64,000 nucleotides of DNA from Terriglobus saanensis SP1PR4. GTDB taxonomy: Bacteria; Acidobacteriota; Terriglobia; Terriglobales; Acidobacteriaceae. The notes under the pieces are model-generated. The model was not told where the DNA came from. It did not search any database and saw nothing but the letters and a program-made list of their open reading frames with translations. The stretch lies in assembly GCF_000179915.2 (NCBI RefSeq), contig NC_014963.1, forward strand, positions 1,922,001 through 1,986,000. Direction: 5' to 3'. Positions 19,540-35,550 of this stretch are shown here, piece after piece. Positions within the stretch are counted from its first letter, which is position 1; the number at the start of each line of letters is the position of its first letter. A program made the translations under genes and the position numbers.

Positions 19540-19881
19540 TTAGGCTAGGCCTTGGAGCCGTCTATGAACCCGTTGCGCAACGCGTTCGGGAATCCGCATC
19601 GTTGTGTATCTCCGCTTTTGACGCGTTTCTTCGTGGGCGATTTTGAGGACACCAGGCTCTTTTCTGAACAACCTCCGAATTGTGTTCTCGCTGAAGCCCC
19701 ACAGCTTCGATAACTCTCCCACGGAACAATGGCGTTCCAAGGACACCGCGCCAGATTTAGGGGTAGCAGGCGTATGAAGAGGTGGCTGGGGAACTGCTTC
19801 GAGTGTCCCTTGGGGCCAAGCTGCAGTCTCGCCGCGTGTCGACGTAACCTCTCTGGTACGAATTGGTTCAACGCTTGCCAC
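19540..19881 (-). CDS. Excisionase/MerR-like helix-turn-helix protein
   Basis: Small DNA-binding protein. The recognisable part is the last 65 residues: 'CSVGELSKLWGFSENTIRRLF' forms a helix-turn-helix, followed by 'EPGVLKI' (wing) and the basic tail 'YTTMRIPERVAQRVHRRL'. This type of ~100-residue protein is common next to integrases and islands in Acidobacteriota. GTG 19881 is one plausible start. The frame stays open to 20076, but the extra residues look non-coding. With the adjacent attachment-like sequence it suggests an integrated element whose integrase is lost or lies elsewhere. Confidence 0.6.
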   Translation of the reverse strand: MASVEPIRTREVTSTRGETAAWPQGTLEAVPQPPLHTPATPKSGAVSLERHCSVGELSKLWGFSENTIRRLFRKEPGVLKIAHEETRQKRRYTTMRIPERVAQRVHRRLQGLA

Positions 19882-20167
19882 AGTTATAGAACATCTCCAG
19901 ATGGTGGAATGACGACATCGATAGACGTCGTGAAGTGTTCCTAGCCTCTCCGGAGAGGAGGTTGGTGTCCAATACTTTTCATCTATCGGGTGATAACTGC
20001 GAGTTATCGGGGTGCTGGAAATGGCACCACGACAGAACGACGGAAAAGTAAATTTGGCCAAACCCATGATTTTCATTGCGACCGATAACTCCGACTGCCA
20101 AGATTTCCTCAGGGGACGATCGAGCGTCCCGAATCGAGTGAGGTGTTGCTTCTACGGGACTTGAGCA

Positions 20168-20751
20168 GTGCATGATTGGGCCGAATTTCGTCACTTCCGC
20201 TATCTGCTTGCCATCCTGGAGAAGCAGGGTTTTCGCAGTGCAGCCGAGCATCTTCACACTTCGCAGCCCAACCTCACCGTGCAGGCACGGCAATTCCGGG
20301 AAAACTCTTCGGTAAAGCTCTATCGCAAACTTAAAGACGGCCGGATCCGGCCGACTGAGACAGGCACCGCATTTATCGAATTGGCACGCTCTCTTCTCCA
20401 GATGCGCGACGAAGTGATCGACGTACTCATTGCGATCGAACGAGGAGAGGTCTCACAGGTTCGTCTCGGATCCAGCCCCCTCGTCGATCAAGAGCTGTTT
20501 CGCTCTTTTTGCTCCATGCACAAGACCATCCTGCCCACGGCTTTAGTTCGGCCTACCCATGGCGATACGCTGCAACTTGCCGAAGAAATTTTGGTAGGAA
20601 CAGTCGATGCGGCTGTGGTCACGCTCCCGCTCAAGGAACCGGATCTGCACATCGAAGAACTCCGCCGTGATCGGCTTGTGGTTTGTCTGCGCAAAGACAA
20701 TCCACTCGCGTCTAAGGTTGCATTGAAGCCCTCGGATCATCGCGCCGTCGC
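20168..20751 (+). pseudogene. LysR-type regulator, truncated at the 3' end
   Basis: The N-terminal winged helix is intact ('FRHFRYLLAILEKQGFRSAA', 'LHTSQPNLTVQARQFREN', 'GRIRPTETG'). About 100 residues of the effector-binding domain follow ('QVRLGSSPLVDQELFRSF', 'VDAAVVTLPL', 'LVVCLRKDNPLASK'). Homology stops near 20750, where a dnaE2 segment begins; the frame then runs on meaninglessly to 20827. A full LysR protein needs another ~100 residues, so the gene was cut by rearrangement. The DNA-binding part could still be made, but a regulated function is unlikely. Confidence 0.8.
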
Positions 20752-21441
20752 TTGCGGAAGCAGAGCGCGGAGGCGCTCGTCAAATCCCGTCAAGAGTCAG
20801 GTGCCTTCCTCTCGGCTGAGGATCTAGTTTCACGTGTTCCTGTTCTCAACCGGAAGGAGCTCACGATTCTCGCTCGGGTGGGTGCCCTGAACAGGCTTGA
20901 TGGAATCGAGCATCGTCGCGATGCGCTTTGGCAGATCGAGCGGGCGGGGAAAATGGAAGGACCTCTGCTCAGAGAGAAGAGTCACATCCTACAAGAGGAG
21001 ACCTTGAGCCTACCCCTTCAGCAAATGACCACCGAAGAGCGGCTCATCTCTGACTATGCTGGAACAGGCCTAACAATTGGAAAGCATCCCATGGCGTATC
21101 GAAGAGATGCACTCCGGAGGCTGCGTGTCTCTTCTGCCGAAGAGCTTAAGACCCTGAGGGATGGAGACTATGTGAAGACCGCAGGTATGGTCATCGCGCG
21201 GCAGCGCCCTGGAACAGCAATGGGCTTCATCTTCCTTTCGATGGAAGATGAAACCGGTATTGCTAATGTGATCGTCACGACCGATCTCTACGAGCGTGAG
21301 CGTCTGGTCGTCACGCGGGCGAAGTTCATTCAGGCTGAAGGTTTGTTGCAAAATCAGGACGGTGTCATTCATGTGAAAGCCGTGAGTTTGAAACTGGTGT
21401 CCGATCAGGCTCTTGAGGTGCGTTCCCATGACTTCCACTAA
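20752..21441 (+). pseudogene. dnaE2: 3' fragment of dnaE2 (error-prone DNA polymerase)
   Basis: About 229 residues corresponding to the C-terminus of DnaE2/ImuC: the helix-hairpin-helix region ('SAEALVKSRQESGAFLSAED', 'ELTILARVGALN'), 'HRRDALWQIERA', the linker with 'LISDYAGTGLTIGKHPM', and the OB-fold tail ('GMVIARQRPGTAMGFIFLSM', 'GVIHVKA'). The catalytic palm and all upstream parts are missing. The first codons (TTG CGG AAG CAG) fit exactly behind the end of the fragment at 34564-34950, so the two are halves of one gene. It cannot work as a polymerase. Confidence 0.88.
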
Positions 21442-21721
21442 TCAAGATCCGCACATCGGCGGCTACCGTAACGAAGTGGACCATCAGAAACTCGGTCCAG
21501 CTCTAGTGATCGCCTCCAGCCTTGTCCTTGCAATCCGTACAGCGCGATGGAGCCCTACGCACAGCGATGGTCTCTCGAATGTCGAATGGGACAAAGAGGT
21601 TGAGCACAGCATTCGAATCGCAAAGGTTGTCTTATCCCAATTGACGGGACGCAGTCCCGAGCTCTTCCAAACCACCAAGGTTCCTTGGTATGTTGCGTCG
21701 GACGAAGATGTGCCGAAATGA
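21428..21721 (+). CDS. Small hypothetical protein downstream of dnaE2
   Basis: 97-residue protein whose ATG (MTSTNQDPHIGG) overlaps the dnaE2 stop by 14 bp, with GAGG upstream. It contains 'PALVIASSLVLAIRTARW' and 'EWDKEVEHSIRIAKVVLSQL', probably two helices, and ends 'WYVASDEDVPK'. No known domain was recognised. The overlap indicates that it was co-transcribed with the intact dnaE2. Its promoter may now be lost, although it is intact itself. Confidence 0.55.
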   Translation: MTSTNQDPHIGGYRNEVDHQKLGPALVIASSLVLAIRTARWSPTHSDGLSNVEWDKEVEHSIRIAKVVLSQLTGRSPELFQTTKVPWYVASDEDVPK

Positions 21722-21967
21722 AATAGCGTCGCAGCATCGAGCAATGCCGACCGGCGGGTTGCGAGCCAGCTCGAGATGTTGATGAATGCACGGTCTCATT
21801 GAAGTGGAGCCGGCCGGGCGCAGCAACAGTGGGATTCTACAGGTAAAGGAAGAACGACAGTCTCTCAGCGGTCAGCTTTTGGAGGGCTCGGTGTGCCAAA
21901 TACTGCGATCAAATGTTTGCCATATTTTTTGAAAACTACACGCGACATCAGAGCTAGTCGTGATCCC

Positions 21968-22546
21968 TCAGCTCTCAGGCAGAGCTGGGGGTTCAACGTA
22001 TGGACGTAGGTTTGCACCGCGCAATGCCTCACGCGCGGAGAAACGCTTTACAAGCATCTCTATAGCTGCCGGTTCAAGCTGTTTCTGCAGCTCGTTGACG
22101 AGCGAGAGATTGAATTCCAAAAGGTTCGTCACGTATTCTCGCGTCTCAGCATCCCCATCTTGGCGACTACCGATGTCCGCCAGGTCATCAAGTCGACCTA
22201 TGAAGCGCCAGAGAGTCAGCGCAGACTCGTCTCTTGCAGCTTCGACCGAAGAACCTATCTCTTGATCGAGTTTGGCGACGAAATTCTTAAGATTAGAGGC
22301 AATGGTTTCTAGCCGCAGTCCACGGGATTCTGAAAGGATGATCTCACCAGGAGATGGAATCTTCCTGTCCAGTGTTCGCAGCCTGGCGAAGGCTTCACCA
22401 CCAAGGAACTCCTTCAAAGACGCTACTTCGTACTGTGCCTTCAGGCGGAAGACGTCAAGGCCAAGCCCATCCCCAGGTGGCAAGGGACTCGACTTCGTAC
22501 TGCCAAACAACTTCTTCAGTCTGCTTATCACACGTGATTTATACAC
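21968..22546 (-). CDS. Hypothetical helical protein
   Basis: 192 residues from GTG 22546 (GGGGAAA upstream). Basic N-terminus (YKSRVISRLKKLFG), then mostly predicted helices with charged heptad-like stretches such as 'IASNLKNFVAKLDQEIGSSV' and 'LLEFNLSLVNELQKQLEPAA'. No signal peptide, membrane segment or known motif recognised. It stands alone between the dnaE2 fragment and an ISL3 remnant. Probably cytoplasmic; function unknown. Confidence 0.5.
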   Translation of the reverse strand: MYKSRVISRLKKLFGSTKSSPLPPGDGLGLDVFRLKAQYEVASLKEFLGGEAFARLRTLDRKIPSPGEIILSESRGLRLETIASNLKNFVAKLDQEIGSSVEAARDESALTLWRFIGRLDDLADIGSRQDGDAETREYVTNLLEFNLSLVNELQKQLEPAAIEMLVKRFSAREALRGANLRPYVEPPALPES

Positions 22547-22644
22547 TTTCCCCTTGGTGTAGCGATCATTTTGCTGTCACTGTTGGCAGTTCATCCCATC
22601 TAGTAGTCCGCCGAGGCGAGCGGAAGTCTGTTGCTTTGAGAACT

Positions 22645-23280
22645 ATTTGGGTTCTTCCGTACATTTGGTGAAGGACGTTCCTGCTGGGTCGATGTTCGCA
22701 TAGAGCTCTGTTTTCAAGCCTTCTGGAGGACGCGCAGTCTTAGCAGATCGAAGCTGGCGCGTCCGTACATCTGCCGTTTGAGCAGCTTGAGCCGATGGAC
22801 CTGTCCCTCTACCGGGCGTGTTGCTCCACGGCAGATGCAAGGCGGCTTCGACGGCGTCCCGATCGCGTGTGATCCCGGAGACGAAGCGGCTTAGGGCGGT
22901 GTGTTGGGCATCTTCAAGCCACTTGGGCCACACGGCAAGATCGCGACAGCGAACGATACGGAAGAATTCCTTTCCGAGATGCGCGAGCTGGGCGATTTCG
23001 GGAGAGGCGCGATAGAGCTCGTCGAGATAGGGCTTTGCGGAAGCTGTTTCCTTTAGGATCAGCCATGCCGTATGACGTGGTGATGCATGCACGATGGGCT
23101 TTACGCGCTTGTTCAACGAATTCTGCTTGGCATGCCCTTGATGTTTCCGAAGCCAGTGCCAGACACTGCTGAGCTGGCCGCGATAGCCGTGCTGTCTTAG
23201 TTCTCGCCAGAGCTGGCTGACGTTACGGCAGCCCTGGAGCAGGCGTTGGTCGAGATAGCTGCCATAGGCGTCTACCGAGT
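22645..23280 (-). pseudogene. Remnant of an ISL3-family transposase with one terminal repeat
   Basis: The minus-strand frame carries the C-terminal part of an ISL3 transposase: 'DAYGSYLDQRLLQGC', 'SQLWRELRQHGYRG', 'RFVSGITRDRDAVEAALHLPWSN'. After 'LPWSN' the frame shifts; the continuation 'EGQVHRLKLLKRQMYGRASF' lies in another frame. The 5' two thirds are absent. At 22645-22675 is a degenerate copy of the terminal repeat of the complete element at 26754. The protein differs enough from that element to be another family member. It truncates the fibre-like gene beside it. Confidence 0.8.
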
Positions 23281-24300
23281 GTGGGTACCCTTCATGGCAT
23301 AGCCTGGTTTTGACGAGGTGACGAGCAGGTCGCCGGGCTTGATCGGACCGTTTTCGGTGCTGACCTTGGTTGGGACGATGCCAGTCATAGCCATCGGCAC
23401 TTCTTCCTTCATGTGCGCTCTAGCAGTGAATTGACGTCTGCCTACGATTCCCGGCTTGGTGGAATAGATACCGGTGACGGTGGTGGAATACGGCACAGAT
23501 GACCTGAGGAAGTTGCCTTCGATGGCGGGATCAGTCACCAGCACATCACCGGGTTCGTAGTTTTCATGGTCGCCAGAGACGTTGACCGATTCGGCGTAGT
23601 CACCCCCCGAGAGGACGCCATTCCATGCGGTGCTCTGGATCGTACCGTCCGGATAAGTCATCGATGCTCCGCTGCCAGCGGTCAACTTTACGCTCCCGTT
23701 GACTTCAAATGCCGCAGTAGGCGTCGTCGTGCGGATGCCGATATTGCCGGAAGCGCTCAGCCAGAGTGCCGCATTACCGGCCCTTGTTGTTGCGTCGACA
23801 TCCATACCCAACCCGAGGGAAGTAGTTGTCCAGTCGGAACCTGTAGAGCTACGATAACCATAGATCCCAAGATGCTCTTCGTTAGTTGCTCCAAAACCGA
23901 AACTCGCTAATTTGAGTTCGCTTCCTGCTGCCGATCCAAGGAGCCCAGCATGTGTAGATAGTATTGGCGAATTGGCGGAGTTATTAAAAAATCCTCCTAT
24001 AGAAAGTAGACTCGTTGACGTGAACGTGCCTATTCCGACCTTGCCGCCTGCGTTCAAGAGCAGTTGCTGTGATGTACCGCTTGACGTGACCGCTACTATC
24101 CGAGCGTCGGACGAAGGAGTCTGAAAGAATATCTGACTCCCACCGCTTCGCTGGGTATGTATGTCACCAACAATATCCAGTGCGGTTGCGGGGTTCGTCG
24201 TGCCAATCCCGACGTTACCGCTGGCGGGGAACGTGTTCTGCGCTAAGGCAACTGTCGTAAAGAGCAGAGACCAAAACAAGTGGTGCAGTCTAACGCGCAT
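23272..24300 (-). CDS. Secreted fibre-like protein, C-terminus truncated by IS remnant
   Basis: 342 residues with a signal peptide (MRVRLHHLFW...ALAQ). The body has the repeats 'GNVGIGTTNPATALDI', 'GKVGIGTF' and 'GNIGIRTTTPTAAFEV', typical of tail-fibre and acidobacterial surface proteins that fold as trimeric beta structures. The C-terminal region 'GGDYAESV' to 'GIYSTKPGIVGRR' resembles peptidase-G2/intramolecular-chaperone type ends. The protein stops at 'GYAMKGTHTR', whereas its paralogue remnant at 24592 continues about 35 residues beyond 'GYAMKGT'. Hence the last part was replaced by the ISL3 fragment. Function of an intact form: surface or adhesion; no enzymatic evidence. Confidence 0.65.
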   Translation of the reverse strand: MRVRLHHLFWSLLFTTVALAQNTFPASGNVGIGTTNPATALDIVGDIHTQRSGGSQIFFQTPSSDARIVAVTSSGTSQQLLLNAGGKVGIGTFTSTSLLSIGGFFNNSANSPILSTHAGLLGSAAGSELKLASFGFGATNEEHLGIYGYRSSTGSDWTTTSLGLGMDVDATTRAGNAALWLSASGNIGIRTTTPTAAFEVNGSVKLTAGSGASMTYPDGTIQSTAWNGVLSGGDYAESVNVSGDHENYEPGDVLVTDPAIEGNFLRSSVPYSTTVTGIYSTKPGIVGRRQFTARAHMKEEVPMAMTGIVPTKVSTENGPIKPGDLLVTSSKPGYAMKGTHTR

Positions 24301-24591
24301 TGGAGATCCTCAAAGAGATTCTTGTGATTCAGCTGTCGAGCTTATGACGGGACATACAAACTGACGCATTAAATAAGCGGACGAATTCTGTAATGGTTCC
24401 CAAATGGGGAATCCTTATGGTGCTGCTGCGCCAAAGTTTAAAAAACGGAACGAAAAATTTCCTTTGGCTCTTTGCGAAAACCCATCGCGCACTTCGCTTC
24501 CCGAAGTCGGCGCTGACCACGGGAACCAAACGCTTGATCAGTAGACACGCCCTCGCGCGTAAACACGTTCTTGAAGCTCACAGTCATGTTG

Positions 24592-24948
24592 CTATTGCAA
24601 CGTGACTCCGATCTCGATAACGCCAGTGCCCACATCGAGATGGCCGAGTGCCTTACCGATCACGGCGCCGAGCATCTGACTGCGATCAGTGCCTTTCATG
24701 GCGTATCCGGGCCGCGAAGATGTAACCAACAAGTCCCCTGGATGGATCGGCCCGTTCTCTGCACTTACCTTGGTCGGCACTATGCCGATCATTGCCATCG
24801 GGACTTCGTCTTTCATGTAAGACAGGTCCGTCTTCTGCCTGCGACCACGAGCTCCAGGTTTCGTTGAATAGATCCCCATCACAGCGGTGGAATAGACTTG
24901 CGAGGATAAAACAAAGCCGCCCTCGACCTTTGGATTGATCAAACCACA
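24592..24948 (-). pseudogene. 3' fragment of a paralogous fibre-like gene
   Basis: The frame encodes only the conserved C-terminal region ('VYSTAVMGIYSTKPGARGRR', 'VPMAMIGIVPTKVSAENGPI', 'GYAMKGTDRSQMLG', ending 'GVIEIGVTLQ'), closely matching residues 260-340 of the 23272-24300 protein. Upstream of about 24948 the frame runs antisense into relaxase-like sequence. The signal peptide and the GIGTT repeats are missing. The 291 bp between the two copies (24301-24591) show no gene. Confidence 0.7.
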
Positions 24949-24951
24949 CGC

Positions 24952-25098
24952 ATGGAGACCAGGCTTCAGCAGGAACAGGCGCAGGCGCTTGCCCGTCAGC
25001 AGCAGGAGCAGGCATTGAAGCAGCAGCAGGAACAGACGAAGACCAAAGAGCCGGAGATTGAGCGCGAGCGCTCCCGTGGGTTTGGCATAGGAAGGTAG
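24952..25098 (+). pseudogene. 3' end of a plasmid-type relaxase/mobilization gene
   Basis: 48 in-frame codons encode a Gln/Glu-rich tail ('METRLQQEQAQALARQQQEQ', 'KTKEPEIERERSRGFGIGR'). Its ending is of the kind seen at the C-terminus of MobA/MobL-like relaxases of mobilizable plasmids. The catalytic N-terminal domain is absent, cut off at about 24950 where the fibre fragment begins. The mobilization accessory gene follows after 4 bp, as in mobilization operons. Confidence 0.5.
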
Positions 25099-25102
25099 CA
25101 CC

Positions 25103-25615
25103 ATGAGAGACGATGAGCTGTTAGCGATCTACGGAGCCACCCGCCAGCTGGCAGAGGGCATGACGGCGCGGGACGCGGAGCTGAAGCAAAGCACGGCTGC
25201 GCTTGAAGCCACGATCGCTCAGGTGCGGCAGTTGCCGGCCATGCTGGGCCAGCAGACCAGCAAGTACATCGCCGCCGGCATCCGGGAGGTCGTGCAGGAG
25301 GACTTCAAGCAGCCCATCGAGAAGGCTGTCGAGGGGCCGATCCGGTCGATTGAGGTGGCGGCTTACCATGCGCGGGAGGCGGTCGAGCAGATTAAGCGGG
25401 AGGCCCGTTTCCAGACCTGGACCGTGTTCGCCTTCATTCTTGCTCTTGGCATGGCTCTGGGCGGCGGCGGGGCTTACTTTTTCTTTGCCCGGCAGGTAGC
25501 GGCGTTGAACGACCGCTTCGACTACTTGCAGCATCTTCTCCTTGCGCTCACACCTGCTACAGCGGACACCCATGCGCCGCCGAAGCCGACCGGGAAGAAG
25601 CCTAGGCAGCACTAA
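25103..25615 (+). CDS. Mobilization accessory protein with membrane anchor
   Basis: 170-residue protein with GGAAGG upstream of ATG 25103. The N-terminal ~105 residues are helical ('AIYGATRQLAEGMTARDAEL', 'GQQTSKYIAAGIREVVQEDF'). One transmembrane helix follows at about 113-135 ('FAFILALGMALGGGGAYFFF'), then a short Pro/Lys-rich tail. This layout matches small membrane proteins encoded behind relaxases (MobB/TraX-like naming is uncertain). It directly follows the relaxase remnant, so it marks the position of a former mobilizable plasmid or element. Probably no longer functional without the relaxase. Confidence 0.6.
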   Translation: MRDDELLAIYGATRQLAEGMTARDAELKQSTAALEATIAQVRQLPAMLGQQTSKYIAAGIREVVQEDFKQPIEKAVEGPIRSIEVAAYHAREAVEQIKREARFQTWTVFAFILALGMALGGGGAYFFFARQVAALNDRFDYLQHLLLALTPATADTHAPPKPTGKKPRQH

Positions 25616-25705
25616 AGGCAGGCTATGGATTTGACGCGCAAGCGCTTGGAACGAGCATAGAGCGCTCGTCCCACAAACCCACAGCCTCGACGACGGAGTT
25701 TTACG

Positions 25706-26104
25706 ATGAGCCAGGAAGAGATCAGTAATCAAAGGATGATGCTTGAGGTAGTACATCTACAGCGGCTTCGGGCGGCTCTGCTGGTCGATCTAAACCGTGC
25801 TTACCCCAAACGGTTAGACAGCCCATCGCTGGCCGCGTTGAATTCGGAGCATGGTCAGCGGCGCATTGTTCGAGAGCTTTGCTACTTGAAAGAGCTGCGG
25901 TTCGTGAGTGTCAAGCAGGGTAAACGGTGGCGCATTGCCGCTCTAGGTAGAGACTTCCTGCTCGGTTTGGTTGAAGCAAATGGCATCATGCAGCCGTCGA
26001 TGCTCCCCTCTATAGTGGCTTATTATGCCTATTCAAATGGCTTTTTCAGTTTAGAGCTGCTGGACTTTGTATCGAGGTATCTTTTGGATTCCATCGATAG
26101 GTGA
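25706..26104 (+). CDS. Small protein with a winged-helix-like region
   Basis: 132 residues from ATG 25706, GGAG upstream. Residues 12-90 resemble a winged helix: 'LQRLRAALLVDLNRAYP', 'LAALNSEHGQRRIVRELCYL' and 'LRFVSVKQGKRWRIAALGRD'. No C-terminal effector domain. It follows the mobilization gene by 90 bp on the same strand and may be a regulator of the same element. Homology to a named family was not recognised. Confidence 0.5.
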   Translation: MSQEEISNQRMMLEVVHLQRLRAALLVDLNRAYPKRLDSPSLAALNSEHGQRRIVRELCYLKELRFVSVKQGKRWRIAALGRDFLLGLVEANGIMQPSMLPSIVAYYAYSNGFFSLELLDFVSRYLLDSIDR

Positions 26105-26115
26105 AAGACAACACA

Positions 26116-26583
26116 TTAGCTGGGGAGAGGCGGTCCTACAATGTAGCAGCCGTAGCTTGCTGCAACTTCCAGAATTTTACTTGCCGGGCTATTGCGAATG
26201 GTTTCGATGCATCTCTCGAAACCGCCGGGCGTGAGGGTAACAAGCAGGCGGCTGGGCTGATCAGAGATATTCTTCCAGGCATGCGGCGTTTCACGAGGGG
26301 CTGTAAAGCTAGCGCCAGCTTCAGCCTCAAAGGTCTTTTCTCCGATCAGAAACCGGTACCTGCCGGCGAGAACAATAAAGTGCTCTTCCTCATTCTGATG
26401 GAGGTGTGCAGGTACACCGCAGCCAGGATCTGCAATGGACTCCACGACAGCATATGCGCCATTTGTCTGCGCGCTGGAAAGGCGTACTGCAATGCGTTCT
26501 CCGGTAGTTCCTTCATGCCATGGTCCCTCATCGTTCATCTTCAGAGAAGCGCTGTTTGGTGGAGGCGGTATTTTCTCGGGCAT
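26116..26583 (-). CDS. Cupin-domain protein
   Basis: 155-residue single-domain cupin. Motif 1 is 'PAHLHQNEEEHFIVLAGRY' with the metal ligands His, His, Glu and a further His. Motif 2 is 'FTAPRETPHAWKN' with the last His. This matches small quercetinase/auxin-binding-like cupins, whose functions vary from dioxygenase to sugar isomerase or sensor. The start MPEKIPPPP has GGAAC upstream (weak). It is a solitary gene between the mobilization remnants and the ISL3 element; it ends 12 bp after the convergent winged-helix gene. Confidence 0.8.
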   Translation of the reverse strand: MPEKIPPPPNSASLKMNDEGPWHEGTTGERIAVRLSSAQTNGAYAVVESIADPGCGVPAHLHQNEEEHFIVLAGRYRFLIGEKTFEAEAGASFTAPRETPHAWKNISDQPSRLLVTLTPGGFERCIETIRNSPASKILEVAASYGCYIVGPPLPS

Positions 26584-26753
26584 TCATTGTTCCTTTTCTT
26601 GTTTTCCGGTGCCGCAGCTATTCTATGGAATGCGGCTATGAGGTTACGTCACTCTTGAATCAAAGAGGCTTTCCGCAAATAAAGATCCGTTTTGTTGAAG
26701 CTCTATTTTAGGTCAAAGTAAATCCTTGGTTCATCTAGTCTGTGGTTTGAGGA

Positions 26754-28474
26754 ATTATTTGGGCTCTGGCTCACTTTTGGTGAAGCAGATACGTGAGCTT
26801 GCGAACGCGTATCCAAGCGTCGAAGTTAGGTGGAGTGGAGGACGCGCAGCCTGAGTAGATCGAAGCTGGCGCGTCCGTACATCTGCCGCTTAATCAGCTT
26901 CAGCCGGTGGATCTGTCCTTCCACAATGCCGTTGCTCCATGGAAGCTGGAGTGCAGCGTCGACGGCGTTGCGATCTCGTTCGAGACGGCGCGCGAACGAT
27001 GCTAGGGGCGAGTGTGCAGCGGCCTCAAGCCATTGTGGCCACGCCACAGCATCGCGGTTGCGGATCATTTCGAAGAAGCCTCTCGCTGTACGGCCGAGCG
27101 ATTCCAGCTCGGAAGAATCTCTATAGAGTGCCTTCAGGAAGCGATGTCTTCGAGGATCGGCTTTCAGCATCAGCCAGGCGACATGCTCAAGGCAGAGAGG
27201 CGGTCTTCTCTTTATGGGTGGTGTCATTCCGGATGTTCGCAAGGATACGAAGCGACGCTGTAGCCAGCGCAATACGCCGGAGATATTTCCTCGGAAGCCC
27301 TGCTGCCTGATCTCGCGCCAGAGTTGTGAGGCGTTGGTGCAGCCTTCCGCAAAACGCCTCTCGAGATAAGGTCCGAACGCATCGACGTGGCTTGGGAAGA
27401 CCCGGTGCTTGCGCTCTGGAAAGACTCCGGTTGCGGTCCATCGCTGTACGGTTCGCAAGCTGACACCGACGGCTGCTGCGGCTTCAGACTGGCTTTTGCC
27501 ACGAGCGATTAGCTCGGTCATCTGCTGGTAGAGCTCAAGGCGGCCCTTCCTCTTCTGCTGTGTCCTCTGCGATGCGAGCGTTTGCGGATCTTCTGGACCA
27601 GAACTACGGACGAGCTGGGTTTCTGGAGGAGCTTCGAGGCGACCGCGGACTTCTCTCACCGTTCCACGATGACGCTCAAGCGACCGGAGCAGCGTATCTA
27701 CAAGGTTGTTCAGCAGGTGCCATCGGTCCGCAACTTGTACGGCGTTCGGAGCACCCTTACGGATAGCGTCCGCGAAGGGACCTGCCCGATCCCGGCTCAC
27801 AACTTGCACGCTCGGATGCTGACGGAGCCATGCTGCTACGGTCTCTGAGTCGCGGGTTGGAAGCAGATCGATGACGCGGCCCTGCTCTAGATCGCACAGC
27901 ATCGTTCCATAGCGATGGCCCTTCTCCGGGCCCACTCATCGATCCCGAGAACCCTTGGTGCCGACGGTGCAGATGAAGGCGCCCGTCTGCGAAGCTCATG
28001 AAGAAGTGTCGTTCTGCTCGCGAGCAAGCCCAGCTTGCGGGCGAGTCTTGCACCGGCCCGGCCACCGAGCGCGAGGGTGACCCAGCTAAGAGCTTCGCTG
28101 GCGCGGTCGCTCCGCCGTGCATAACGGCTTACGGTCCCAGGGAGTGGTTCGGTGAAGATGCGGCGCGTGCAGCGCCCGTCCACACAGAAAAACTTGCGGG
28201 CTCGAAGAGAAATCTGCACCGGGATACCTTCCCACGGCAGGTCTGCGAGCGTACGCCAGTAGCGACTGTGCACCCGGGATGAGCGGCTGCCGCAGCCTGG
28301 ACAGAAAGAGACGGCTTGGCAAGCACGGAGTTCCACATGGATCAAGCCGGCCTTCGGGCGAAGGCAGATCAGATCAACCTCTGCACTGCTAGGGATCAGC
28401 GTTCCTCGGTTCATGCCTCTACATCTACACCCGCAACCGCCTCGTCACCAAAAGCGTGCCAGAACCCAAATAAT
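26754..28474 (-). mobile_element. ISL3-family insertion sequence
   Basis: Terminal inverted repeats were aligned directly. The left end ATTATTTGGGCTCTGGCTC (26754 onward) and the inverted right end ATTATTTGGGTTCTGGCAC (28474 inward) agree at 24 of 27 positions through 'CTTTTGG'. Between them lies one ISL3-type transposase gene on the minus strand, interrupted by a frameshift. The true ends may extend a few bases outward, and no clear 8-bp target repeat was identified. Length is about 1.7 kb. A degenerate relative lies at 22645-23280. Confidence 0.85.
26826..28414 (-). pseudogene. ISL3-family transposase, frameshifted
   Basis: Two frames together give a full ISL3 transposase. The upstream frame (28414-27887) has the zinc finger 'CPGCGSRSSRVHSRYWRTL' with the second pair in 'FFCVDGRC', the HTH-like 'RKLGLLASRTTLL' and first catalytic Asp in 'GIDEWA'. 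The downstream frame (27935-26826) begins at the homologous 'KGHRYGTMLCDLE', with Asp in 'VADRWHLLNN' and Glu in 'SNGIVEGQIHRLK'. The shift falls in TGGGCCCGGAGAAGGGCC near 27925, consistent with a one-base loss. ISL3 enzymes are normally one reading frame, so this copy is probably inactive. Confidence 0.85.
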
Positions 28475-28523
28475 CTGATCAGAATGCGACACGGATTGTG
28501 AAAAACAACAGCGGACAGCGACG

Positions 28524-28592
28524 CTGCAATACCTGCCCGTAAAGACGCTGAGGCATCGTGCGGTGGTGATGACGTTCTATGCGACCGGCATG
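28524..28592 (+). pseudogene. Tiny fragment of a tyrosine recombinase
   Basis: 23 in-frame codons read LQYLPVKTLRHRAVVMTFYA then TGM, which resembles the segment around helix B of IS91-linked or XerC-like integrases (usual form 'KHRALLMTLYGAGLR'). The frame loses similarity at once after TGM. Nothing else was seen in the rest of the 28475-28766 spacer. It suggests another recombinase gene once stood here. Confidence 0.35.
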
Positions 28593-28766
28593 GGCCAGGC
28601 CCACCGTGCCGACTGTCCGACACGGTGGGCTCCTACGTGATCGAAGGTTGGTCTGCTATCCGGCCATACACGCTAATAAAGGTAAGGGGCGGAATGTAAC
28701 AGAACAGGTGGAACTATGATCGGCAATCGAGCCCGACTGAAGGTCGGGAACTTTTCGGTCGTGGTG

Positions 28767-29096
28767 CTAAAATTCGACGGCTTTCGCCACGATCTGGGAA
28801 CCGATGTCTACAGCCTTCGTGATCGCATCGATCACCTTGGCGACATCTCCTAGATGATCGATGGTGGTCTTAAGACTCGTCTCTTCTGTATTGAGCTGGA
28901 TGACGAGCTCCATGATCTCAGGGTTGTCGTCATGAAGATTCTTCTTCACGGCGGTCCAGTAGTTTGTCCGGCTCTGAGCTATTTGTGTACGCAGCAGATC
29001 CAACTGATTTGTCGTCGCTCCCTGCTCTGTCAACGCGCTGAGGCTACCTCTCAGTAAGAAAAATTGATTTTCAAGTGCCTCTATGGACTGACTCAT
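28767..29096 (-). CDS. Small helical protein paired with the upstream lipoprotein gene
   Basis: 109 residues, ATG 29096 (MSQSIEALENQ) after AGGAG. It is almost entirely helical: 'IEALENQFFLLRGSLSALTEQ', 'LDLLRTQIAQSRTNYW', then an amphipathic Ala/Val-rich C-terminus 'AKVIDAITKAVDIGSQIVAKAVEF'. No signal peptide. It follows the lipoprotein gene by 11 bp, so they are co-transcribed. The glycine-poor amphipathic end could associate with a membrane or a partner protein. Family not recognised. Confidence 0.6.
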   Translation of the reverse strand: MSQSIEALENQFFLLRGSLSALTEQGATTNQLDLLRTQIAQSRTNYWTAVKKNLHDDNPEIMELVIQLNTEETSLKTTIDHLGDVAKVIDAITKAVDIGSQIVAKAVEF

Positions 29097-29107
29097 TACG
29101 TTCTCCT

Positions 29108-30028
29108 TTAGATGAGGGATGCAGACCATGACTGAGCCCAATCTTCGACGAGCTTCAGCGAGAAGGGAGCTCCGCGAAGAGACATTGGCTTTTCGGTAGC
29201 TACTAGGTGTACACGTGAACTCATTTCGCGAAGTGATGCAAGCATCGCAGCTGAGGCAGACTCGTCCTTTTTCATAGCCTCGTCCGTTGCGTGCTGGAGC
29301 CGGGAGAGTGCCAATGTCTTCAATGAAGATTGCATTGACAGACTTGGAGGTAGGGCTCTGAGATCGAACGGTTTCAGCGCAGGAGCGAGCATTGGACTTG
29401 GATCGACGGCATTCGATTTAAGGAGATCCTGAGCGATTTGGCTAGCTTCGCGATCATGGGTTCGTGCGATGGAATCATAAGTTGGCTTTTCCTTCTCGAA
29501 CAGGTCTGCGACAGCTTTTAGTGTTTCGTCGATGGCACGAGCCGCTTTTTTCTCTTCATGCTGCTGTACGATTTGCAGCAGAAAGTTTCCTGCTTTTCCG
29601 ACCGCGTCAGGAACCGATGAGCCGCCTGGGAGAGCTTGAACTGCGATCAACTCATTACCTAGCTGCGTTGCCGAAGCTTGCACGTCAGACGCCGCCTTAG
29701 AATTTGAAAGCGTGGACATCGCGGACGCTAGTCTCGCAAGCGCGTCCGCCAGCTCTTTTCGCTTTTGAAGTTCTTCCCGCGTCGACTCAGAGAGCTTTCG
29801 ATCATCATCTCCAAATGGGATTCCGGAGATTGCCCCGTCCAGCTCATAAAGAGAGATCGTGCCAGCGAGCCTCGCATCCAGCGCTGAATAATAGTCGTTC
29901 AACGCGTTTGCGGTGGATGTCATTTGTTGCGAGGCAGCAATTGCGTCATCTGACACCTTGCAGGCCACAAGCGAACTGATTAGCCCGCTGCAAATGAGGG
30001 TTATGCAAAACTTCCTTGCTCGGGTCAT
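29108..30028 (-). CDS. Helical lipoprotein of unknown function
   Basis: 306 residues. ATG 30028 follows GGAGA. The lipoprotein signal is 'ICSGLISSLVAC', with Cys at the start of the mature protein. The mature part is helical with many Ala/Ser/Glu and two long predicted coiled or bundle stretches (about 85-135 and 150-200). No catalytic motif was seen. The small helical gene downstream is 11 bp away. Upstream, an open frame without a start codon overlaps its 5' end and may be the remnant of a third member of this unit. Anchored probably to the outer membrane or facing the periplasm. Confidence 0.65.
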   Translation of the reverse strand: MTRARKFCITLICSGLISSLVACKVSDDAIAASQQMTSTANALNDYYSALDARLAGTISLYELDGAISGIPFGDDDRKLSESTREELQKRKELADALARLASAMSTLSNSKAASDVQASATQLGNELIAVQALPGGSSVPDAVGKAGNFLLQIVQQHEEKKAARAIDETLKAVADLFEKEKPTYDSIARTHDREASQIAQDLLKSNAVDPSPMLAPALKPFDLRALPPSLSMQSSLKTLALSRLQHATDEAMKKDESASAAMLASLREMSSRVHLVATEKPMSLRGAPFSLKLVEDWAQSWSASLI

Positions 30029-30554
30029 CGTCGATTCTCCGTTCTTTGGGCAACTCACTCAATACCGGGTCTGACATGGGAACTAGTTTTGTCGCACACG
30101 CGACAAGCTTTGCTTTGGCCTGAAGCAAGTTCATACTCAGGATCCAAGCAGGGCAGTCATTGTCCTCAACGGTCGTCCACCGCATGATGGAGACATCAAA
30201 GGGACTTGTCAATTCTTTTGTAAGCAGATTGGGGAAGACGTCACCGAAGCCGTGTTCCAAGAGATCACAATACAGATCGATGTAGGTCCCTATCCTGACA
30301 CAAGGGAACCCATCGATGACCTGCTGGTCGTGCTCATGGAAAGTGGGCTGAACGTTGCTAATGGGAAATGCAGTTTGCTTCCAACTGCATGTTGAACCCG
30401 GATGAAACTGAGCACAGTCTTTCTCCTCGGCAAATTGACCCTTTGTCGCTGCAGTGCGGACAGCCGGGATGATCGCAAGGTCCTCGATGTCGGCATAGTG
30501 CTGTGGAGCGTCGTCGGATAATAGGCGAGACGTTAGAAGCTGGTGAACAATGCA
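29946..30554 (-). pseudogene. Start-less coding remnant, cysteine-containing protein
   Basis: The minus frame is open for 202 codons between TAG at 30555-30557 and the stop at 29946-29948. Its first possible initiator is TTG 30260. The translation reads like a real protein with balanced composition ('DAPQHYADIEDLAIIPAVRT', 'IGTYIDLYCDLLEHGFGDVF', 'SIMRWTTVEDNDCPAWILSM') and eight or more cysteines. No family recognised. The 5' part is probably lost. Its 3' end overlaps the lipoprotein gene by 83 bp; the original stop may have been earlier. Confidence 0.4.
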
Positions 30555-30687
30555 CTAACTACAAGGCCACCCACTTTGGCCTTTTGGCGACGGCGCTAAT
30601 TTCCTCTAGCGCCATCCCATATCTCGCGCTATGATTCGTTGCCGGCCCCCGTGACTCCATCTCCTCCGCAGAAGTTGAGCCCCCGTC

Positions 30688-31689
30688 ATGCCAATAACTA
30701 TTACTCTCCTAGCAAAAACCTTAGACGGTTTCGCTGCCGTCGATACCTCCATGACACTCGACATTGTTCAGACCGTCCCTCTCCAGCAGACGATTTTGCA
30801 CCAGGTCGTCCCCAACTTCACGGGCGAGTACATCGTCGAACTCGAAGATCCCGACACCTTCCCCATGTGGACGGTCACCCTCTCCCTCTCCCGCTATGAC
30901 GCCGGCCCCGGCTTCACCTTCATGCCGCGCGGCAACCCCAATCCCAGCCACACCTTCCACGTCGCACGCCTGCCCTCAAGGTGGGAGTCTGTCTTCTCTT
31001 CTTTGGGCGAACTTCCCGCTGACCGCTTCGATCCTTTCAAGAAGGTCCTCTCCGTCAGCAAGACCGTCGATGTGAAGAACGGTCCCATCATAGGCGACCT
31101 CCAGGCCGCCTATGATACCCTCGCCGGCACTCAGCAAATCCTCGCCAAGGCCGCCCTACTCAACCTCTTCGCCGTCCTGACCGATGAGGTCGACCCTATA
31201 GCCATGATCCCCTGGTATAGCTACGTGCGCAAGGTTGTCCGCATCGACCAGGAGCGCTTCCTCGCCGAGGTCGACCCCGCCCTCTTTGAAAACGTCCAAA
31301 CCATCCTCAACGAACTCACCAGCACCTACGCCGCCCAGGGCTTCTTTACCGAGCCCGCCGCCGATCTGCCCCTCCATATCCCCAACATCCCCACCGCTTA
31401 CCACAGCGACCAGAATCTCAGGCAGATCATCACCGTGAAGAAGGACTACGAACAGGGAAACCTACAGCTCACCCTCTCCTTCCTCGTCGTCGACGGCGTC
31501 GCCGTCCACCTGCTCGACTGTGACATGGATGAGCATCGCAACATCATCCTGCACAGCTTCGACATCCTCGCCCACCTCGTCAACGGCGGCACCAACCCCA
31601 TCGCCATGCATGAATACATCGTGGAAGACTCCGCCCAGCAATCCCCCACCCGCCTCTCCACCATCAACCTCGGTTACACCCTCGTATGA
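30688..31689 (+). CDS. Hypothetical protein, C-rich codon use, coupled to SGNH hydrolase
   Basis: 333 residues with no signal peptide. Predicted mixed alpha/beta; N-terminal beta-rich part ('TLDGFAAVDTSMTLDIVQTV', 'GEYIVELEDPDTFPMWTVTL'). The middle is helical ('GDLQAAYDTLAGTQQILAKA', 'ALLNLFAVLTDEVDP'). No known motif recognised. The stop overlaps the next start by 4 bp (ATGA). Codons end almost always in C on this strand, a bias not shared with neighbours. Together with the next gene this points to recent transfer from another genome or an unusual transcriptional context. Start: ATG 30688 after CCCCCGTC, no clear Shine-Dalgarno. Confidence 0.65.
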   Translation: MPITITLLAKTLDGFAAVDTSMTLDIVQTVPLQQTILHQVVPNFTGEYIVELEDPDTFPMWTVTLSLSRYDAGPGFTFMPRGNPNPSHTFHVARLPSRWESVFSSLGELPADRFDPFKKVLSVSKTVDVKNGPIIGDLQAAYDTLAGTQQILAKAALLNLFAVLTDEVDPIAMIPWYSYVRKVVRIDQERFLAEVDPALFENVQTILNELTSTYAAQGFFTEPAADLPLHIPNIPTAYHSDQNLRQIITVKKDYEQGNLQLTLSFLVVDGVAVHLLDCDMDEHRNIILHSFDILAHLVNGGTNPIAMHEYIVEDSAQQSPTRLSTINLGYTLV

Positions 31690-32861
31690 CCCGCATTCTC
31701 ACCCTACTCCTGTCCATCGCACTCCTCACCATGACACTGCCCGCCATTGGCCAGCAGTGCATTCACCCTCCAGACGATCTCATTCCTGCTGTCGGCTCCT
31801 CCCCTACGGCATCTCCAATGGTCGTCGTCGCCTTTGGCACTTCGCTCATGTGGGGCGACGGCCTGCTGGAACAGAACACCTTTCGTTATCGCACCGCCCA
31901 GTGGCTCGCCACGTACTCCCTCCGTCCCGTCCGTCTCGCCACCTACGCTCACTCCGCCGCGGTCCTGGCAGCGCAACTCGGTGCCTCGTATCCAGTCAAC
32001 CCCGTTCCAGACATCGGAGACCTCAATTACTCCCTCCCCTCCGTCGACGACCAGATCGCCTGCGCCGCTAGGGCCCCGGGTCTCGCGCACCCTGACCTCA
32101 TCCTCGTCGAAGGCTGCATCAACGACGTTGGCGCTGAATCCATAGCACTTCCCTGGACCCAGCCCGGCCTGCTCAAGAGCGAGACCGAGGCTGCCTGCGG
32201 CCCCGCCATGTTGAAAGAGCTCCAGAAGATAGACGCCAGCTTCCCCAACACCGCAGTCGTCGTCGCCGGCTACTATCCACTCGTCTCAAAGAAGTCCACC
32301 GTCTTCGGCTTCTTCGGTCTCTCCGGCACCCGCCGCGCCGTCAACCGTGCCAAGCGTATTCGCGATCAAAAAGCACTCACCCGACAGAAGACTATTACCC
32401 CACCTCAACCGAAAACCTCCATGAGCCATCTCCAGGAGCATGACAGCATGGCCGACAACTCGGAGCTCTTCTACCAGACCTCAAAGAAAGCTCTGAAAGA
32501 AGACATCCAACAAGTCAACGCTTCCGCTTCCTCACCGCGCTTCTTCTATGCTCAGCTGCCCGAAGGTAACTACGGCTACCCCGATCCCACCGTCAACCCC
32601 AACTTAGCCTACGGGGCACCCAACCGCCATCTGTGGATGATCTCCTTCCGCTTCTTCCACCTCTTTGCCTTCTACAAGGACCAGAAGTACTGGTATCGCG
32701 TCCCCCTCTGCGATGACCCACGCAACGTTCCCGATCTTCTCGAACGGCCTATTTGCGAGACCAGCCCCGCCTTCCATCCCAATGGCTCGGGCTCCCAGGT
32801 CTACACCGACAGCATCATTCAGTCCATTCCGAGTGCCATTAAGGACACCTGGAAGCATTGA
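31686..32861 (+). CDS. Secreted SGNH/GDSL-type hydrolase
   Basis: 391 residues with signal peptide (MTRILTLLLSIALLTMTLPAIG). Block I appears as 'VVVAFGTSLMWGDGLL', a GTS variant of the GDS motif with the nucleophile Ser. Block III is 'ILVEGCINDVG' with Asn-Asp. The C-terminal His lies in 'SPAFHPNGSGSQ', although the usual D-x-x-H is not exact. These enzymes hydrolyse esters of lipids or of acetylated glycans. It is translationally coupled to the unknown protein before it and shares its C-ending codon bias. A basic insert (about 220-245) separates the blocks. The partner may be a chaperone or substrate protein, but this is inference. Confidence 0.7.
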   Translation: MTRILTLLLSIALLTMTLPAIGQQCIHPPDDLIPAVGSSPTASPMVVVAFGTSLMWGDGLLEQNTFRYRTAQWLATYSLRPVRLATYAHSAAVLAAQLGASYPVNPVPDIGDLNYSLPSVDDQIACAARAPGLAHPDLILVEGCINDVGAESIALPWTQPGLLKSETEAACGPAMLKELQKIDASFPNTAVVVAGYYPLVSKKSTVFGFFGLSGTRRAVNRAKRIRDQKALTRQKTITPPQPKTSMSHLQEHDSMADNSELFYQTSKKALKEDIQQVNASASSPRFFYAQLPEGNYGYPDPTVNPNLAYGAPNRHLWMISFRFFHLFAFYKDQKYWYRVPLCDDPRNVPDLLERPICETSPAFHPNGSGSQVYTDSIIQSIPSAIKDTWKH

Positions 32862-33389
32862 CCTGATTCACCTCGGCCCTGAAGCGGCCGAAATGGTTCA
32901 CGAAGCACGACGGCGCGCCCACAACTCTATCTTCTGAACCGCTGGCCACAACACGCTTTCCTACCGTTCGGATCTCCGGCGTCCTCGCCCCAGCAAGGCT
33001 CCTGTGCGCAGCTCTGAGCAGGCTTCCTTCGCTGTATCCTCGGACAACTCCTAGATCATCACCCCACTAAGATTGTGCTCAACGACGAACGCTCCCTTGG
33101 CCTCCCCGCTGATCGGGTCATAGAACGTCCAGAAGGCGTCGCCATCAAGAGCCAAGGTGTCTATAGCGCAGAGACGTGGAGATCTTGGGGACTAGCCTCC
33201 GACTGGTCGGCTGAGCAATCCAGCCTTTGGGGAGGTCGCAAGGTCGGCTCTGGTGAAGCCGCTTTTAAGTGTCCGCTTGGCGACGATTTTGGCGCGGGCG
33301 TTCATGAGCGGATTCCACGCTTTTTCTAGAACAGCCGAGGTAAGATTCTTAGCGGAATCCTCTTCAAATTCTGCCGCAGGTCAGACGAG
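32862..33389. other. Intergenic region with possible coding tail
   Basis: 528 bp between the hydrolase and the membrane protein genes. On the minus strand, roughly 33145 down to 33053, the frame 'TLALDGDAFWTFYDPISGEA' then 'KGAFVVEHNLSGVMI' and a stop reads like the C-terminal tail of a protein. Its upstream part is not recognisable, so it is at best a gene remnant. The rest has no structure that I could support. Confidence 0.3.
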
Positions 33390-34451
33390 ATGCAAGATGC
33401 ATTTAAGGCCGCATGGAATAATCGGGCGCTTGGATATGTGTTGCTCGGCGTAACAGCGCTGTCTGCGATGTACATGCTTTGGAAGGTACCGAGCCCAGGG
33501 GTCGCGGTTGCTGTGCTTGGTGTCGCTTCAGGAATTATCGCAATCAGAGAGTTATCGGCGATTGAGCGTGTCGTATGGGTATTTGTCTTATCGTGCTTAC
33601 TCTATGCGGAACTGCATGCCATCCGTACTGATCGAAATACGCAGGACCAGAAGCATGCTGCAGAAGTCAAAGTGCAGACTTCGGAATTCGAAGAACAACA
33701 GAAGCAATTCAAAACAATACTCGACACCGAAAACGCGGAATTCAAGGACACCAAAGATCGCATCAGCAGAGCCCTCGACGCCGCAGAAGAGACGTTAATC
33801 CAGACTGCTCCACGAGCAGATTTGCAAATTGGGCCAATACTTATTTATCCAAAGGACCCAACGCCAGAACAAACTGCATCCGACCCTAAATCGCTCAGCT
33901 TGAGGCGGACGTTTACAATCACTATCGATTGGGCTAACAGGGGGACTGATGAAGCACGTCGATTGAAAATTCTTTCGAACGCGTATCTTGTGCCGGAATT
34001 GGAAGGGCTGTCGCCAGTCTCGGCGAAGGATAGCTTTAATCGAGATTGGCAGAACTTTTTCAGAGCAGAAAAGAAGCCGGACCGCGCGAGTCAGATTGCG
34101 ACTACAGGGGTCTACTATGACAGGATGGTTTCAGGCGATCCTCATACAGAGCAGTACACAAGACCTTGGGGACCAAACGATATATACAACGACCTAATCG
34201 ATGCGCGTAGTAAAGCAGTGATTCACCGTCGGATGTTCATCCTCGTTCGCTTCGATTATTACGACAAAACTGGACACTGGCGTGAGGATATCTGTAGACG
34301 CATTAAAGGTGAGATGACCTCGCAATCAAGTCATTGGGATTCCTGCGACATTATGCAAAATGCTCGCTACCGGATTGGGGCGCCTCTTGGTGTAAGAGAA
34401 GCGAAAAAGCTAGGAAAGCATGAAGTAGGGCAACAGCCAGGTTTCCCGTAA
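33390..34451 (+). CDS. Membrane-anchored hypothetical protein with coiled coil
   Basis: 353 residues. Two adjacent transmembrane helices lie at about 15-70 ('LGYVLLGVTALSAMYMLW', 'VVWVFVLSCLLYAELHAI'). A charged coiled coil follows (about 85-135, 'FEEQQKQFKTILDTENAEFK'). A soluble domain then runs from 140 to the end with beta character ('SLRRTFTITIDWANRGTDEA', 'MFILVRFDYYDKTGHWREDI'). No known domain recognised. The soluble part is predicted to be cytoplasmic or periplasmic depending on topology, which was not resolved. Weak Shine-Dalgarno. It stands alone just left of the dnaE2 fragment. Confidence 0.65.
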   Translation: MQDAFKAAWNNRALGYVLLGVTALSAMYMLWKVPSPGVAVAVLGVASGIIAIRELSAIERVVWVFVLSCLLYAELHAIRTDRNTQDQKHAAEVKVQTSEFEEQQKQFKTILDTENAEFKDTKDRISRALDAAEETLIQTAPRADLQIGPILIYPKDPTPEQTASDPKSLSLRRTFTITIDWANRGTDEARRLKILSNAYLVPELEGLSPVSAKDSFNRDWQNFFRAEKKPDRASQIATTGVYYDRMVSGDPHTEQYTRPWGPNDIYNDLIDARSKAVIHRRMFILVRFDYYDKTGHWREDICRRIKGEMTSQSSHWDSCDIMQNARYRIGAPLGVREAKKLGKHEVGQQPGFP

Positions 34452-34563
34452 AGCAATCCCATTGCATGTAAGCAAACAGTCTTGAATGTGCCCATTAAAG
34501 TTTGGGCCCCGGAGAAGTCCATCGTTCCCTGGGCGTGCGCAACGCTTGCTAACGATAGTGCGA

Positions 34564-34962
34564 CAATCCGCGCGCATATCCAAGACCAAGGCGCAAGGAG
34601 AGACTTTGGTCTTTTTCATGCTCGATTGTGCACGGCCAATCGGAGACCTGCACATCGATGGGTTTGATACGAAGGCCGTGTCGTTGCGCGTCTTTGACGA
34701 GGACGGCGGGCATGTAAAAACCCATGGGCTGGTTGTTGAGGATGGCGCAGGTGAAAGCAGCGAGGTACTTCACTTTGAAGTATGCGGAGGCATACGCAAT
34801 CAGAGCGAAGCTCGCAGCATGCGATTCGGGAAAGCCATACAACGCAAAGGAACTGATGTTCTTCTGCGTCGCAGTGTCGAGTCCGTTCGCTGTCATGCCA
34901 GCCTTCAGTTTTCCTTCGAGATTCTTCATCCGCTCCCAGGAGCGCCGCATATCCTGATCAAG
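34564..34962 (-). pseudogene. dnaE2: Internal fragment of dnaE2 (error-prone DNA polymerase)
   Basis: About 130 residues on the minus strand: 'RRSWERMKNLEGKLKAGMTA', 'SSFALYGFPESHAASFALIA', 'VKYLAAFTCAILNNQPMGFY', 'DAQRHGLRIKPIDVQVSDW', ending 'LRLGLGYARGL'. This is the DnaE2 segment that immediately precedes the helix-hairpin-helix tail. Past 'RGL' the frame continues only four codons (SHYR) to a stop at 34549. The missing continuation begins 'RKQSAEAL' and lies at 20752 in opposite orientation. The upstream end is cut at about 34960, against a different truncated gene. Non-functional. Confidence 0.85.
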
Positions 34963-35063
34963 TGAAACGCTCCATCGACGGGGTGCGCTAACAACCTGCG
35001 TGAAGTCGGATCGACCAGAATCAGTCGGTACTCCACCTCTTCGAGATGCGTTGACGTTGTCAT
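34961..35063 (-). pseudogene. 5' fragment of a gene following the PqqD-like gene
   Basis: ATG 35063 with GGAAG upstream begins 'MTTSTHLEEVEYRLILVDPT' and continues 'SRRLLAHPVDGAFHL' before the sequence changes into dnaE2. It starts 16 bp after the PqqD-like stop, so it was the third gene of that operon. The remaining ~34 residues are too few for a confident family. They recall the N-terminal domain of phosphotransferase-like proteins found beside acidobacterial lasso-peptide genes, from memory only. Confidence 0.5.
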
Positions 35064-35079
35064 GATGCTTCCAGTCTGT

Positions 35080-35334
35080 TCAACGAGACAACAGTTTGTG
35101 TTCTTTGAGAGAAGCAAGGAAATCACTCACATCGTGTGCAACGACTTCTCGCGGTGCGCCAGTCTCTTCGACAAGGCTCGCCACGATGGCCTCTTCGCTC
35201 TCGCCTTGTTCCAGTGCCTGCCAGACATATCCGCCGGTAGTGTTCAAGGTCGAGATGGTTCCTTGCTGCGTATCGAGGATTGCGGCACCGTCCTCATTCG
35301 CGACAGTCCGAAGATGAGCCTTGTCGTTTGCCAT
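35080..35334 (-). CDS. PqqD-family (RiPP recognition element) protein
   Basis: 84 residues, ATG 35334 after GGAG. The pattern 'NEDGAAILDTQQGTISTLNT' then 'TGGYVWQALEQGESEEAIVA' and 'VVAHDVSDFLASLKEHKLL' is the PqqD/lasso B1 winged-helix fold. In peptide-modification pathways this fold binds the leader peptide. Here it is preceded on the same strand by a large protein with an S24-like segment and followed by a truncated gene. No precursor peptide or cyclase could be identified in the window, so involvement in a RiPP pathway is inferred from the family only. Confidence 0.78.
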   Translation of the reverse strand: MANDKAHLRTVANEDGAAILDTQQGTISTLNTTGGYVWQALEQGESEEAIVASLVEETGAPREVVAHDVSDFLASLKEHKLLSR

Positions 35335-35550
35335 AAACACTCCGCAGCCTTGGACGATCAATGCGCAACCGGCTGTGAAGGTGAGCTTCGTCTTCCTTCT
35401 TGCATCGTGCAAGCGAAAACGGGCAATTGGCCAAACTTACTTCGCCGTCGCAGCAGAAGGATTTGCGAGCGCAATGTGGGGAATTTCTAGTGCGTTTTTT
35501 TCACACACTTTCGGCCAAAGGTACTTTCAGGCTTAAGACTTCGCCACAAC

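Follow-up and report, generated by a model that had tools for sequence, protein, structure and literature searches.

What was left of a single dnaE2 gene in Terriglobus saanensis SP1PR4, a bacterium of tundra soil, appears to have been cut in two by an inversion within the degraded remnant of a conjugative element, a reading to which we give a probability of about 0.89. The segment studied, here called the window, is the 64-kb stretch 1922001-1986000 (G000:C1) of a genome that consists of one contig with 5,095,226 bases; positions below are counted within this window, unless they are stated to be of the genome. The two pieces of dnaE2 lie on opposite strands, their break points (20752 and 34564) being separated by 13.8 kb, and the element family of the remnant is present in Terriglobus and in other Acidobacteriaceae.

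The original prediction, made from the letters of the window and a list of its open reading frames (ORFs), proposed that a minus-strand piece ending in GLGYARGL is continued by a plus-strand piece beginning with RKQSAEAL, and the alignments bear this out. Indeed, the two pieces (Table 1) match consecutive residues of one intact DnaE2, that of locus L033, piece 1 at residues 712-844 and piece 2 at 845-1072, and on the intact acidobacterial DnaE2 of G008 they fall at 712-844 (83%) and 845-1071 (68%), with no overlap or gap. On the NCBIfam model NF004225 (error-prone polymerase, 1047 positions) they match positions 694-827 and 827-1047, respectively, each alone scoring far under the whole-protein cut-off, as expected of fragments. 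Of the ORFs of 91 loci, a set that includes T. albidus and T. roseus twice each, 81 match both pieces, and 76 of these have them adjoining exactly; the other five place them off by one residue (two ORFs) or 57, 76 or 115 residues apart. In separate trees the nearest neighbour of both pieces is L033, with support for this pairing of 0.62 and 0.0, and L034 is found in the next clade.

A second dnaE2 that might be a better parent for one piece was not found in the SP1PR4 genome: a full DnaE2 query finds the two pieces and one frame of 1176 amino acids at 30% identity, presumably DnaE1. The first 711 codons of dnaE2 are not found in the genome with the same query and, because they are lacking, the remaining gene should not make a polymerase. 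As regards the partner proteins, ImuB has no matches in the genome, in a search that had no positive control alongside, though the same query matches many relatives; the single ImuA match (33% over 76 residues) lies in a frame of 389 amino acids at genome position 833497, which we take to be RecA. Of 126 highly conserved positions, five differ in the pieces (one is the junction residue and one the deletion) against a median of one, which places the pieces at rank 5 of 82, a place shared with two others; the idea that they are strongly decayed was thus rejected, and the disruption looks recent or weakly marked. L132, whose dnaE2 is already broken, is ranked in this comparison and was dropped from the trees. 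In this locus (G017:C3:1075000-1094999), which also has a weakly matching LysR close by, lies a second dnaE2 of this relative, broken separately and spread across two frames.

A LysR gene is interrupted at the left break, as had been noticed from the sequence, and the similarity to LysR stops between 20737 and 20749; after the valine aligned with 20747-20749, a leucine codon follows in all 10 relatives, and GCT follows in the window. The C-terminal part of the protein was not found: the full-length LysR of G008 finds residues 2-191 at the locus, and elsewhere other LysR sequences at 33% or less. Weak LysR matches outside the 10 related loci include L119 (36%), L179 (34%), and L173, L174 and L176 (28-33%). 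The usual downstream neighbour of this LysR is a VirB2-like pilin gene, located 3′ of it on the same strand in nine of the 10 LysR loci of relatives, from six genomes, and a 92-bp fragment of such a gene adjoins the right break in the window. This fragment matches those nine loci at E<=1e-6. As a control, only one of 296 random window pieces, drawn so as to exclude any falling in 20100-20752 or 34300-35000, matched one such locus; the start of this piece, 19882, falls within the region upstream of LysR. The original prediction held that a simple reciprocal inversion is insufficient, since the continuation of LysR was not seen at the other break. This stands in part: what continues at 34564 is not LysR itself but its VirB2-like neighbour, and this has the orientation expected. 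In the relatives, the points that correspond to the two breaks are 658-688 bases apart in eight of the nine loci and 955 in L123; from this comparison of sequences, about 660-690 bp, comprising the C-terminal part of LysR and the start of VirB2, would have been lost in the window (about 955 bp if L123 is the guide).

Relatives provide the layout against which the window can be read. A full set of element genes is present in one stretch in two Terriglobus relatives, G013:C3 (L126 and L127) and G017:C3 (L122, L128 and L129), in the order LysR > VirB2 > VirB4 > TrbI/VirB10 > TrbL/VirB6 > VirB11 > VirD4-type coupling protein > MobF relaxase, followed in the opposite orientation by a cargo block facing MobF, small ORF < dnaE2 < imuB < imuA. 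G003 (L125) keeps this order too, in a copy that has decayed: its VirB4 is cut, and the stretch contains no MobF. In Acidobacterium sp. S8, a contig of 42,058 bases that includes L034 contains imuA, imuB, dnaE2 and the small ORF facing MobF, VirD4, VirB11, VirB4 (in two overlapping pieces) and VirB2; LysR aside, this is the order of the un-inverted window. Since L034 is among the nearest DnaE2 relatives, the S8 layout slightly raises the support both for an inverted remnant and for the cargo reading discussed below. When the segment 20752-34564 of the window is reversed, the remaining dnaE2 frame is restored, as had been proposed, and the parts read LysR > VirB2 fragment ... small ORF < dnaE2, which is the order and orientation found in the relatives; therefore, one inversion explains why dnaE2 is cut, why LysR and VirB2 are apart and on which strands these parts lie. 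The genes that remain stand, once this single inversion is undone, in the order of the intact element. When the ORFs of 18 relatives' loci were compared with the 19-37.5 kb region of the window, matches were confined to LysR, its upstream region, VirB2, the small ORF and dnaE2, and with this comparison no relaxase, coupling protein or VirB transfer genes were found at the locus. The suspicion that more than one event took place is thus confirmed: besides the inversion, the locus has lost imuA/imuB, the transfer genes and the 5′ portion of dnaE2.

The same genome has three further transfer regions, at 2905000-2924999 (L147), 3652000-3671999 (L146) and 4533000-4552999 (L148), with neighbours L149-L151; each has matches to LysR, VirB2, VirB4, VirB11, VirD4 and MobF, and none has a dnaE2, no match being found outside the two window pieces except the presumed DnaE1. 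A recent copy from one of these regions was considered as the source of the VirB2-like fragment and rejected, as their similarity to it (78-89% over 47-78 bp) does not exceed that of foreign copies.

At the junctions, the bases TTG had been predicted to be shared by both breaks; they are, and four more bases, TCGC, are also found at both. Long inverted repeats are absent from the breaks: between the 300-bp stretches around them no exact inverted match exceeds 9 bp, and the match of this length is situated away from the junctions, and none of the 25 longest of 72 inverted pairs falls at the junctions. Because of this absence, neither a recombinase switch nor homologous recombination is supported. 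Inversions through staggered or short-homology breaks are of a known kind; as in those, a few bases are repeated at both junctions and long repeats are lacking, whereas the window has additionally lost about 0.7 kb at one end. The following account is inferred as to the sequence of events and the way in which the ends were repaired. A 13.8-kb stretch, from the LysR/VirB2 region to dnaE2 codon 844/845, would have been inverted, splitting what was left of dnaE2 and parting LysR from VirB2. The join would have used at most a few bases (TTG, TCGC), either through staggered breaks that were filled in and rejoined or through short-homology end joining; filled-in staggered breaks would leave junction words of this type, the alternative being a three-base homology plus coincidence. 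Of the genes for transfer that separate VirB2 from the small ORF in relatives, none is left here, and their place is taken by ISL3 sequences and unrelated ORFs; imuA/imuB and the first two thirds of dnaE2 are gone as well, dnaE2 now joining the neighbourhood of a PqqD-like gene (~34951).

Several points weigh against this reconstruction. The VirB2-like fragment is just 92 bp long, and the gene is called VirB2 because of its place before VirB4 and a match to Pfam TrbC that, at 27.6 bits, falls slightly short of the curated cut-off of 27.9. The 10 LysR loci are not independent (four are from G155 and two from G013, and L125 and L126 have VirB2 genes that are 98% alike), and VirB2 is missing from one locus, L124, whose transfer region is itself decayed. 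The missing 660-690 bp imply that the inversion was not cleanly reciprocal, or that an earlier deletion had occurred at the same point. The 7-base word GCGCGGA directly precedes TTG in piece 1 and recurs in piece 2, 11 bases from its start. In G017, MobF and the small ORF are separated by other genes over about 10 kb, and the S8 contig (42 kb) showed no LysR of this type within its first 40 kb. Lastly, the polarity of the inversion rests on more distant elements, because there is no close relative for comparison.

Three other explanations have to be weighed. The two pieces could derive from different dnaE2 copies that landed nearby independently: as many as three dnaE2 matches occur in some relatives, the genome has its three further transfer regions of this family, and the tree support for a common nearest relative is low. 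This is nevertheless improbable, as the pieces adjoin at one residue, share L033 as nearest relative, and the VirB2-like piece at the right break would be left without explanation. Still less likely is an assembly error joining unrelated sequence, which would have to occur consistently in two places, at breaks that have no long repeats to cause a misjoin; the published genome is described as finished, with one replicon, from 454 paired ends of ~10.8 kb and gaps closed by polymerase chain reaction (PMC3570800). A programmed or reversible inversion toggling dnaE2 on and off, in whose favour it can be said that inverting the segment would rejoin the remaining reading frame, is the least credible of the three, given the missing 711 codons, the lack of long inverted repeats at the junctions, the deletion of four residues in piece 1 and the loss of several hundred bp at the other end. 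Thus, the split dnaE2 looks like a dead pseudogene in an inverted remnant and not like a switch.

Table 1. Features of the dnaE2 locus in the window
Feature	Position	Strand	Basis or remark
ORF 5′ of LysR, helix-turn-helix-like by eye	19540..20076	-	no Pfam match
LysR, N-terminal ~194 codons only, cut at left break	20168..20749	+	Pfam HTH_1 and LysR_substrate; 72% to intact G008 homologue
Left junction, TCGC-TTG	20748..20754	+	
dnaE2 piece 2, DnaE2 residues 845-1072 (C-terminal end, OB domain); starts RKQSAEAL after TTG	20755..21441	+	profile and alignment
ORF of 97 amino acids (the small ORF), overlapping the dnaE2 stop; original 3′ neighbour	21428..21721	+	beside dnaE2 in some relatives; no Pfam match
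ISL3-family transposase relic	22643..23116	-	
ISL3-family insertion sequence, terminal inverted repeats with 30-nucleotide ends	26754..28474	-	
VirB2-like pilin gene fragment, usual downstream neighbour of LysR	34472..34563	-	adjoins right break
Right junction, TTG-TCGC	34566-34560	-	
dnaE2 piece 1, DnaE2 residues 712-844, MRRSW...GLGYARGL	34564..34950	-	4-residue deletion
Sequence beyond far end of dnaE2 piece 1: ORF start and PqqD-like ORF (35080-35412)	34951..35412	-	

The interior of the inverted stretch contains other ORFs, 10 of which were scanned against Pfam, with one above the family cut-off, a cupin (26116-26583). Identical 8-base flanks were not seen by eye around the complete ISL3 element, which may mean a rearrangement adjacent to it. 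The small ORF downstream of dnaE2 has matches in 14 of 92 dnaE2-bearing loci (L058 and L024 are the same organism, and the match in L101 spans 42 amino acids). On the far side of the PqqD-like ORF, a protein of 519 amino acids (35551-37110, minus strand) has no Pfam or NCBIfam match at E<=0.001; a second copy in pieces (78-84%) is present at 1446286-1447232 of the same genome, starts of 23-24 residues are found also at genome positions 1430287 and 2841312, and one homologue (49%) is present in G080.

Upstream of LysR, the stretch 19813-20010 resembles the DNA located 5′ of LysR in the related elements, and about 42 bp of the upstream region (19966-20010) recur inverted between LysR and VirB2 in L122 (10050-10091). 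The window also contains an inverted pair of 24 nucleotides, 20038-20061 and 35427-35450, which share a GTAAATTTGGCCAA-like motif (20042-20061, plus strand; 35427-35446, minus strand). This motif precedes LysR by ~105-130 bp both in the window and in four of the 10 LysR loci of relatives (L121, L122, L124 and L177; at most 5 mismatches in 20), as well as between the 519-amino acid gene and the PqqD-like ORF in the window, and beside the homologous 519-amino acid gene in L153. The pair was considered as an end of the element and rejected, since the motif recurs upstream of LysR in those four loci; possibly, it is the site of a common regulator.

Known systems offer two comparisons. Conjugative plasmids such as pRalta of Cupriavidus taiwanensis are reported to carry imuABC (imuA-imuB-dnaE2), which was tested there in rhizobial experimental evolution (PMC4151985). 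As in the acidobacterial relatives described here, ImuA, ImuB and DnaE2 are in pRalta placed on a self-transferring element; unlike pRalta, the window keeps the C-terminal third of dnaE2 alone, split in two, in an acidobacterial host and with the transfer genes gone from the locus. Closer to the host is pACIX903 of Granulicella tundricola (NC_015058.1), whose VirB4 is 72% identical to that of the Terriglobus element, with a MOBF relaxase and MPF_T typing; its dnaE2 has as neighbours a Y-family polymerase and a gene that is annotated recombinase A. However, pACIX903 is a free plasmid, with dnaE2 and VirB4 ~50 kb apart, while the window holds a chromosomal remnant. Titles and abstract openings of the papers listed by literature searches on dnaE2/imuB, conjugation, Acidobacteria and Terriglobus describe no acidobacterial conjugative elements of this kind.

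These comparisons lead to a broader cargo reading, which we hold tentatively, at somewhat less than even odds: Acidobacteriaceae may have their own family of MOBF/VirB elements that repeatedly carry ImuA-ImuB-DnaE2 and the 97-amino acid ORF, T. saanensis having kept three transfer regions without this kit and one copy with it, disarmed by deletion and inversion. Against it stand the occurrence of MobF in four of the 92 dnaE2-bearing loci (L026, L034, L127 and L128), among 99 stretches of which many are short contigs, the lack of dnaE2 in the three other SP1PR4 transfer regions, and the genome of L033, whose closest VirB4 genes (78-79%) are found on contigs other than that of L033 and whose LysR matches reach just 28-33%.

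The inverted remnant is a case of ordinary genome decay, unusually well recorded: a gene and a pair of neighbours are cut at the same two breaks, and the history of the inversion can be followed to a few bases without a close relative. If the cargo reading is true, each transfer would bring a mutation-raising kit to a new host, and acidobacterial elements carrying error-prone repair would extend the idea proposed for imuABC on rhizobial plasmids to another phylum.

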